A DNA stretch of 55,422 nt. It comes from an uncultured Bacillota bacterium. GTDB lineage: Bacteria; Bacillota; Clostridia; Christensenellales; UBA1242. The notes below the pieces were generated by a model, which had not been told where the DNA came from, searched no databases, and saw only the letters and a program-made list of their open reading frames with translations. This document shows, in pieces, positions 32,660 through 37,720 of this stretch (position 1 is the stretch's first letter; every line of letters starts with the position of its first letter). Made by a program: the position numbers and the translations under genes. The stretch covers positions 1-55,422 of the forward strand of contig CAMRTM010000005.1 of assembly GCA_947053645.1 (NCBI GenBank), in the 5' to 3' direction.

Positions 32660-34630
<1,971 letters not shown>

Positions 34631-34640
34631 GGGACTGAAT

Positions 34641-35210
34641 ATGGAAACTTTAGGAAATATATTACTAATCATTGTTTCAATTTGTACTTTTGTTTCATAC
34701 TTTCCACAAATTCTTAAATGCCTCATTACGAAACAGGGTGAAGATCTAAGTATTTGGTCATGGATTTTATGGGTTTTAAGTTCACTTGCTTATACTCTAT
34801 ACGCCGTGCTTTGCACAAACACTGTGATGCTAATTATAGAAACTTCTCTTGAATTGGCGTTCTGTTTAACAATATTAATTTGCGCAATAGTATTTAGAGA
34901 CAAAAGAAAGATTAAAACGATAACAATCTGCGGCAGTTTAAAGTTTGAAGAGGACATGATTAAAATCGCAGGCGAACTTGAAACAAAAGAAAATACTTGT
35001 GTCCTTCAGTGCATATATGGTTTAAAAAATTTAACCGACGATGAGAAAAAGAAACTTGCTGAATTGCATTATAAAAAAATTGATATTTCCGACGCAATTT
35101 ATGTAGTTAATATCGGTGGCTATATCGGCGAAAGCACTAAACTAGAAATTGAATACGCACAAAAGCATAAAAAAGAAATAATTTATCACGAAAGAGATAA
35201 AAGGAGATAA
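34641..35210 (+). CDS. Fusion: PQ-loop (SemiSWEET-like) membrane domain + nucleoside 2-deoxyribosyltransferase-like domain
   Basis: N-term [40 protein letters not shown]-term [21 protein letters not shown]...[35 protein letters not shown]. Confidence 0.8.
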
Positions 35211-35212
35211 AT

Positions 35213-37720
35213 ATGGAAAAATACGAAAACAAAAAGCCATTGGAAGAACTTTTTAAAGAAACCAAGGTGGAAAAACTTGACACGGTGAATGAACTTAAAC
35301 ATTCATTTATCTCCTATGCTATGGCGGTAAATGTTTCGCGTGCTATCCCTGATGTAAGAGACGGACTTAAACCAGTTCACAGAAGAATTCTTTTCAGTAT
35401 GGGAGAAATGAACAACTTCTACGACAAACCAACCAAAAAGAGTGCGAGAATTGTCGGCGAGGTTATGGGTAAGTATCACCCTCACGGAGATAGTTCCGTA
35501 TATGACGCTATGGTAAGACTTGCACAAGACTTTTCTATTCGTTACCCTCTTGTAGACGGTCAAGGAAACTTCGGCTCTGTCGATGGCGACCCACCTGCTG
35601 CTCAGCGTTATACTGAAGCACGCCTTTCTAAAATCGCAGCGCTTATGCTTGAAGATATAGACAAGGAAACAGTAGACTTCTACCCTAACTTTGATAATAC
35701 CCTTATGCAACCGGTAGTACTGCCTGCCAAAATACCAAACTTACTTATAAATGGCTCAGACGGCATTGCTGTTGGTATGGCGACTAATATTCCACCTCAT
35801 AACTTAAACGAGGTTTTAAATGGCTTACAAGCCCTTATAGACAATCCTGATATTGATATCGATGAACTTATCAAATTTATACCAGCACCTGACTTCCCTA
35901 CTGGTGGAATTATTATGGGAAGAAGTGCTGTAAAACACGCATACAAAACCGGTCGTGGCGGAATAGTGGTTCGTGGTCGTGCCGAAATTGAAGAAATGAA
36001 TAACGGCAGAACACGAATTGTAATTACTGAACTGCCATATATGGTAAACAAAGCACAATTCATTGTACAAATGGCAGACCTAGTTAAAAACAAGAAACTT
36101 GAAGGAATAAGCGATATTCGCGAAGAAAGTGACCGCGAAGGTATGCGAATAGTTGTAGACATTAAGAAAGATGCAAACGCACAGGTTGTATTAAACTCAC
36201 TTTACAAACACACACTTCTTCAAAAAGGAAGTGGAATTATCTTCCTTGCCCTCGTAAATAATCAGCCAAGAATTTTAAACCTGAAAGAAATGCTTTACTA
36301 CTACCTTGAACATCAAAAAGAAGTGCTTATACGCAAAACTCAGTTTGACCTTAAGAAAGCACAGGAGCGTGAACATATTGTAAAAGGACTTGTTATCGCA
36401 CTTGCAAACATTGATGAAGTAATCCGAATTATTAAAGCATCAGATGATAAACAAGATGCAGCAACAAAACTTATGGCAAGTTTTAAATTGGACGAGATTC
36501 AAGTAAACGCAATCTTAGAGATGAGATTGTCTAAACTTACAAGTTTGGAAGTAGAAAAACTTAATGAAGAATTACGCGAACTTGACGCATTAATCGCAGA
36601 TTATCAAGATATTCTTGCAAAGCCTGAACGCGTTCTTAAAATTCTTCGTGACAATTTTGAAGAAATTAAAAATGCATATGGCGATGCTCGTAAAACTGAA
36701 ATCAGTCTTGAAGCAGGTGGAATTGATATTGCTGATCTTATTGAAAAGGAAAATGTAGTTATCTCTATGACACATGAAGGCTATATCAAGCGTATGTCTA
36801 CAAGCGAATACAAATCACAACATCGTGGTGGCGTAGGCGTAACCGCCCATAAGACCAAAGACGAAGACTTTGTAGAACGCATGTTTATTACCTGCACTCA
36901 TAATGATTTATTGTTCTTTACTGATATGGGAAGAGTATACAGCATAAAAGCATATGAAGTGCCAGAAGCACAAAGAACTGCCAAGGGTCGTGCAATTATA
37001 AACTTGTTACAACTTTCACCTGGAGAAAAAGTAACAACAATAATTCCACTAGAAGAACATGCAAATGGCAACCTCATTATGGCAACAAAATACGGACTTA
37101 TTAAGAAAACTAAACTTAAAGAGTTTGCATCAATAAGAAAGGTTGGAAAAGTCGCAATAAAACTCATTGAAGGCGATGCCCTTATCAATGTTGAAGTATC
37201 AAGTGGCGAAGACGAAATCTTAGTTGCCAGCCACGAAGGCAAATGTATAAGATTTTCCGAAAAAGATGTACGCTCCGTGGGCAGAGATAGTCAAGGCGTA
37301 AGAAGTATGAAACTGACTGGCAGTGACTACATTGTAGATATGAGTATTGCAAAACCTAATAGTGAAATGGTTACTATCACTGAAAACGGATATGGTAAGC
37401 GTAGTAGCATAGATGACTACAGATTACAATCTCGTGGCGGAATGGGTGTTAAAGCTGGCGTATTCAACGATAAGACAGGTAAACTCGTTGCACTTAAACA
37501 AGTAGTGGAAGAGAGTTGCGATATAATGCTAATTGCAGATAATGGAATTATTATAAGAACACCAATTGACCAAATTAGTAAACTTTCCAGAGTGAGCCAA
37601 GGCGTTCGCATCATGAAACTAAGAGATGATGCAAAAATTGTTGCGGTTGCTCTCACCGAAAAAGAACCCGAAGAGCCAACTGAGGAAATCACTGAAGAAG
37701 GCACTCCAACCGAAGAATAA
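35213..37720 (+). CDS. gyrA: DNA gyrase subunit A
   Basis: [27 protein letters not shown]...[53 protein letters not shown]. Confidence 0.98.

Follow-up and report, generated by a model that had tools for sequence, protein, structure and literature searches.

A PQ-loop carrier domain and an NDT-like domain encoded in one frame by a gene between gyrB and gyrA of an uncultured Clostridia bacterium

Between gyrB and gyrA of an uncultured Bacillota bacterium (Clostridia; Christensenellales; UBA1242) lies a single open reading frame whose product combines a small membrane carrier with a domain resembling nucleoside 2-deoxyribosyltransferases (NDTs), which raises the question of what such a protein does and why it is placed beside the gyrase genes. 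The window, i.e., the whole stretch of DNA analysed here (55,422 nt of contig CAMRTM010000005.1, assembly GCA_947053645.1), belongs to a draft genome of approximately 874 kb (19 contigs, 95% complete). The following features of the gyrase region were distinguished:

32678..34630, + strand: gyrB, the upstream operon gene (Pfam DNA_gyraseB, DNA_gyraseB_C, Toprim and HATPase_c)
34629..34634, + strand: AAGGGA, Shine-Dalgarno-like sequence of the fusion gene, overlapping the gyrB stop codon (from the sequence)
34641..35210, + strand: PQ-loop + NDT-like fusion gene, 189 aa, TAA stop; same architecture in genomes G081 and G085
34641..34904, + strand: PQ-loop/SemiSWEET-fold domain, residues 1-88, three transmembrane (TM) helices (PF04193, SemiSWEET sequence and fold matches)
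34704-34709, + strand: PQ motif, P22-Q23 of the fusion protein
34911..34913, + strand: ATT (I91) at the fusion point, where standalone C-domain relatives start with ATG (junction comparison)
34911..35207, + strand: NDT-like domain, residues 91-189 (AF2 model, PDB NDT matches, invariant columns)
35145-35147, + strand: codon of E169, the presumed nucleophile
35201..35206, + strand: AAGGAG, Shine-Dalgarno sequence of gyrA, within the last two codons of the fusion gene
35213..37720, + strand: gyrA, the downstream operon gene (Pfam DNA_topoisoIV and DNA_gyraseA_C)

The open reading frame begins 10 nt after the gyrB stop codon and its own stop is followed, after 2 nt, by the gyrA ATG; coordinates and sequence thus bear out the placement described in the earlier note, including the gyrA Shine-Dalgarno sequence in the last codons. 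In 500 shuffles of the gyrB-gyrA interval, the longest stop-free run averaged 47 codons and reached at most 169, against the 189 codons present here. This result, together with the retention of a 190-192 aa frame in two other genomes, shows that the frame is more than a product of chance, and it is a real gene. Promoter and terminator signals inside it did not rise above chance level.

The N-terminal domain (residues 4-57) matches the PQ-loop family PF04193 with E=3e-9 and 36.9 bits (cut-off 22), and the corresponding domains of the other two fusions reach 40.2 and 44.1 bits. The match to MtN3_slv lies slightly under its cut-off, and the scores for the NCBIfam SemiSWEET models (22.7, 20.0 and 13.2 bits) stayed far under the respective cut-offs of 80, 100 and 200. 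SemiSWEET chains of the PDB match residues 6-80 by sequence (E~1e-5), and the predicted model of the fusion protein contains helices at residues 2-30, 38-59 and 62-86, its N-terminal half, of moderate confidence (pLDDT 55-73), superposing on 4qnc, 5uhs and 4rng with a TM-score of about 0.8 over the target and an rmsd of 1.9-2.3. The profile, sequence and fold matches support the three-TM, SemiSWEET-like PQ-loop N-terminus proposed earlier. Retained features are the PQ motif (residues 22-23, TM1), the gate Asp (D35) and the Tyr of TM2 (Y54). In alignment to the PDB SemiSWEETs, the pocket Trp of TM2 corresponds to Y51 and the Asn of TM3 to T68, and E67, T68 and E71 of TM3 are invariant in nine aligned PQ sequences. 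In SemiSWEETs, the sugar-pocket residues Trp48 and Asn64 are critical for substrate (PMC5972207). Identity as a sugar carrier was set aside as unsupported because these defining, sugar-contacting residues are missing; the domain is of the PQ-loop carrier type, and its substrate is probably not glucose.

The likeness of the C-terminus to the NDT fold, also claimed by the earlier note, held for the fold and in part for the active site. The AF2 model of residues 91-189 (pLDDT 92.3) retrieved 20 PDB matches at E <1e-3, all of them NDTs (E 3.5e-5 to 9.8e-4, TMq 0.67-0.81); fold comparison alone found these proteins, as the C-domain sequence profile retrieved no NDT from the PDB. Taken alone, residues 91-189 of the window protein gave no meaningful Pfam match, and PF05014 was not matched. 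Among 17 aligned C-domain sequences, (i) DUF4406 (PF14359) was matched by 10, the window domain not among them (best E 1.6e-5), (ii) phrog_355, annotated as NDT, by nine, with the window domain below the model, and (iii) PF05014 by four, weakly (best E 0.003). Judged by these alignments, the C-domains are a small separate family. Positions invariant among the 17 include CGS, His53, Asp61, Gly73 and Glu79 (C97-G-S, H143, D151, G163 and E169 of the fusion protein). In a weak hhalign alignment with Rcl-like sequences (probability 6%, E 0.006), E169 coincides with their nucleophile Glu, and H143 with their catalytic Asp, which is expected on the helix ahead of the strand leading to the Glu; the Asp-x7-Asp spacing of the Rcl-like sequences equals the His-x7-Asp spacing of the C-domain. 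DNPH1 uses its Asp to protonate the base and its Glu to form the covalent intermediate (PMC10603095). By the alignment, the presumed nucleophile is in its place in the predicted active site, and the Asp position is taken by a histidine. Identity as a true NDT was rejected on account of this invariant His, and the domain is best described as NDT-like by its modelled fold, with the putative nucleophile kept, rather than as a demonstrated NDT.

The reading that we favour, tentatively, is that of a membrane-tethered device for nucleotide salvage or sanitation, in which a PQ-loop carrier and an NDT-fold domain are fused in one protein. Two genes that occur separately in the genus, one for the three-helix PQ-loop carrier and one for a small NDT-fold protein, have fused in frame to give a single membrane protein, whose gene, given its position, would probably be co-transcribed with the gyrase genes without its product being part of gyrase. 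The carrier is expected to form a membrane dimer whose basic C-terminal ends face inwards, as the SemiSWEET fold together with the positive-inside rule suggests, and the NDT-like domain would hang in the cytosol, as predicted from the basic segment after TM3 and from SemiSWEET topology. A nucleoside or nucleotide could then be attacked at its sugar carbon by Glu169 and lose its base, with His143 replacing the usual Asp, and the carrier could move the product or the substrate across the membrane. Most likely, the protein is an NDT-like hydrolase or a nucleotide sensor tethered to the membrane on a small dimeric carrier, for which we infer the catalysis, the substrate and the coupling.

The absence of the catalytic Asp of NDTs and DNPH1 means that the C-domain may bind without cleaving, and the protein could accordingly be a carrier gated by a sensor, the non-catalytic NDT-like domain binding a nucleotide or nucleoside and thereby opening or closing the PQ-loop part. 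Small ligand-binding domains are common on transporters, and a domain with His at the catalytic position, tethered to a carrier with a non-canonical pocket, would suit such a role. However, C-domain relatives retain E169, D151, N157 and the CGS loop with few or no exceptions, even where the protein is soluble and standalone and thus lacks a carrier to regulate, and one relative (G087; L196:448-1284) is fused to a Nudix domain, i.e., to another enzyme. We consider gating of this kind possible, although on the unlikely side.

A further question is whether the two halves need each other at all. Both domains occur in one frame in 3 of the 112 genomes of the genus, each time between gyrB and gyrA, so that the search for the architecture confirmed the fusion of PQ-loop and deoxyribosyltransferase-like domains in one frame and found it to recur, at 71-72% identity to the window protein, in two other genomes:

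L101:1696-2268: fusion gene of G081, 190 aa
L166:1252-1830, - strand: fusion gene of G085, 192 aa

Apart from the window's own, the 396 order genomes and 399 phylum genomes searched contained no such fusion, and literature searches on PQ-loop/NDT-like fusions or on genes located between gyrB and gyrA returned nothing. The architecture, a recombination of two known domain types, looks unreported within the genomes and literature searched. The codons at the junction (ATG AAA GTT typically at the start of standalone C-domains, ATT AAA ACG in the window, ATA AAG ACC in G085 and ATG AAA GTT in G081) show an in-frame joining at the former start codon of the C-domain gene. Substitution rates in the three fusions (dN 0.11-0.29, dS 2.3 or saturated) indicate that both halves are under strong purifying selection. 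In a tree built from the C-terminal 200 residues of GyrB, each of the three fusions falls on a branch of its own. G116, whose GyrB tail is identical to that of the window genome, has the C-domain in solo form alone (69% identity to that of the window); in the close relatives G116 and G094 the carrier part is missing. A single shared origin was considered and set aside, as neither domain tree resolved it; the present trees are compatible with fusion on several occasions, with species exchanging the insert, and with an old fusion followed by losses.

These data bear on a second alternative, namely that neighbouring cargo genes merged when a stop and a start codon disappeared in a streamlined genome of about 0.9 Mb, and that the halves work independently. 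Solo C-domain and solo PQ genes indeed exist in other species of the genus, the linkers are short and variable, the gyrB-gyrA slot gathers unrelated small genes, and G081 retains the internal ATG, preceded by purine-rich sequence, and could still make a solo domain from this start. Against this, the unfused neighbouring pair was seen in none of the 112 genomes while three fusions were, the internal start has been lost in two of the three, and the fusions fall on three separate GyrB-tail branches, although the domain trees leave their origins unsettled. Such an incidental merger has, in our judgement, a modest chance of being correct.

The position of the gene could also be taken to mean that the protein works together with DNA gyrase or in DNA metabolism and has stayed between the gyrase genes on that account. 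The interval houses all three fusions and several of the solo copies, and in G329, from another genus of the family, a PQ gene is found close upstream of gyrB. However, among 96 genomes of the genus the gyrB-gyrA gap is 70 bp or shorter in 33 and exceeds 250 bp in 57, and most of those without a short gap carry different genes there: the insert families comprise (i) a MazG-like family (32 genomes), (ii) a 128-aa family (16), (iii) a DUF488-like family (11) and (iv) the PQ/NDT group (8). In the order beyond the family, 4 of 24 genomes had a gap of more than 250 bp. Within this genus, the interval is a slot of changing content, which may be empty or hold one or several small genes from unrelated families, and the location of the fusion gene therefore says little about gyrase. 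Solo C-domains, moreover, often follow yigZ near recX, and solo PQ genes occupy unrelated places away from gyrase. The survey of the interval, as suggested by the earlier note, confirmed the placement of all fusions; a special tie to gyrase is improbable in view of the many unrelated genes accepted by the slot, and we regard a partnership with gyrase as very unlikely.

Other observations were made on the slot and on the solo genes. The gap inserts of relatives (e.g., L101, L104, L112, L120 and L131) also include GNAT and DUF2441 genes and may amount to several small genes, and at two loci the gyrB-gyrA gap encodes a 226-aa protein with a tandem duplication of the MazG-like domain (L158:1247-1927 and L159:420-1100). 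In several relatives, solo C-domain genes stand directly after yigZ and before recX (both identified by eye), overlapping or abutting them (L003:1483-2162, - strand; L004:1139-2460). In G514, a PfkB-like carbohydrate kinase (by eye) is joined to a C-terminal NDT domain (L220:1424-2681, - strand), and in G079 a solo PQ-loop gene is convergent to Ku-like and ATP-dependent DNA ligase-like genes (by eye; L172:138-2315).

An artefact of assembly or sequencing that joined two genes, which the draft state of the source genome (19 contigs) might suggest and which the earlier note had allowed for, was rejected as extremely improbable, since the same in-frame fusion is present in the assemblies of two other species. 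A role in defence was likewise rejected, as the PADLOC anti-phage profiles gave no match to the fusion protein at E 0.1.

The proposed salvage or sanitation device draws further on genomic links to nucleotide enzymes. Besides the Nudix fusion of G087, a solo PQ gene of G080 lies 4 nt ahead of a related Nudix gene (L173:2064-2925), and a MazG-like gene adjoins the fusion in both G081 and G085. The MazG-like family carries the motif EExxE...EE.AD and gives a weak profile match to the nucleotide pyrophosphohydrolase 5ie9 (E 8.5e-4) and weaker ones to other MazG-type chains, while remaining under Pfam's MazG cut-off. The Nudix and MazG-like links suggest nucleotide handling; they are few, and other small genes share the slot. 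In these gut Clostridia with genomes of about 1 Mb, the gyrB-gyrA interval takes up small accessory genes, some of them with nucleotide-enzyme signatures.

If the two halves cooperate, a SemiSWEET-fold carrier would be tied to nucleotide chemistry and would thus acquire a testable substrate; to our knowledge, the substrates of bacterial SemiSWEET-fold carriers are mostly unknown. It is conceivable, although we hold it to be doubtful, that the protein represents a minimal transporter, i.e., a PQ-loop carrier with an acidic, non-sugar pocket that is driven or gated by the attached nucleotide-cleaving or nucleotide-binding domain, and that NDT-fold domains with His in place of Asp are a separate class of enzymes.

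Among known systems, the C-terminal domain shares with NDTs (PF05014; 8pqt, 2a0k) the Rossmann-like fold and an E-[LI]-x-Y-A motif, invariant in the 17 aligned C-domains, that contains the nucleophile Glu, and differs from them in its length of just 99 residues, in lacking a PF05014 match and in the His at the catalytic Asp position. The 2'-deoxynucleoside 5'-phosphate N-hydrolase DNPH1/Rcl (8rpt, 4fyh) has the same fold (fold-search E 5.6e-3) and an aligned nucleophile Glu; its D80 position corresponds to His143 of the fusion, whose loop ahead of the Glu has two additional residues. DUF4406 (PF14359) and phrog_355 are matched by relatives of the window domain, whereas the window domain itself reaches neither model. 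With SemiSWEET/PQ-loop proteins (PF04193, PF03083; 4qnc, 4rng, 5uhs) the N-terminal domain has in common three TM helices, the TM1 PQ motif, the intracellular-gate Asp, the TM2 Tyr and the fold (TMt ~0.8), whereas Tyr51 and Thr68 replace Trp48 and Asn64, Glu67 and Glu71 are invariant in TM3, and an enzyme-like soluble domain is attached. The seven-TM bacterial SWEETs, made by the joining of two PQ-loop units (PMC5972207), likewise result from the fusion of a PQ-loop gene to a partner, which is a second PQ-loop unit in their case and a soluble NDT-like domain in the protein described here.
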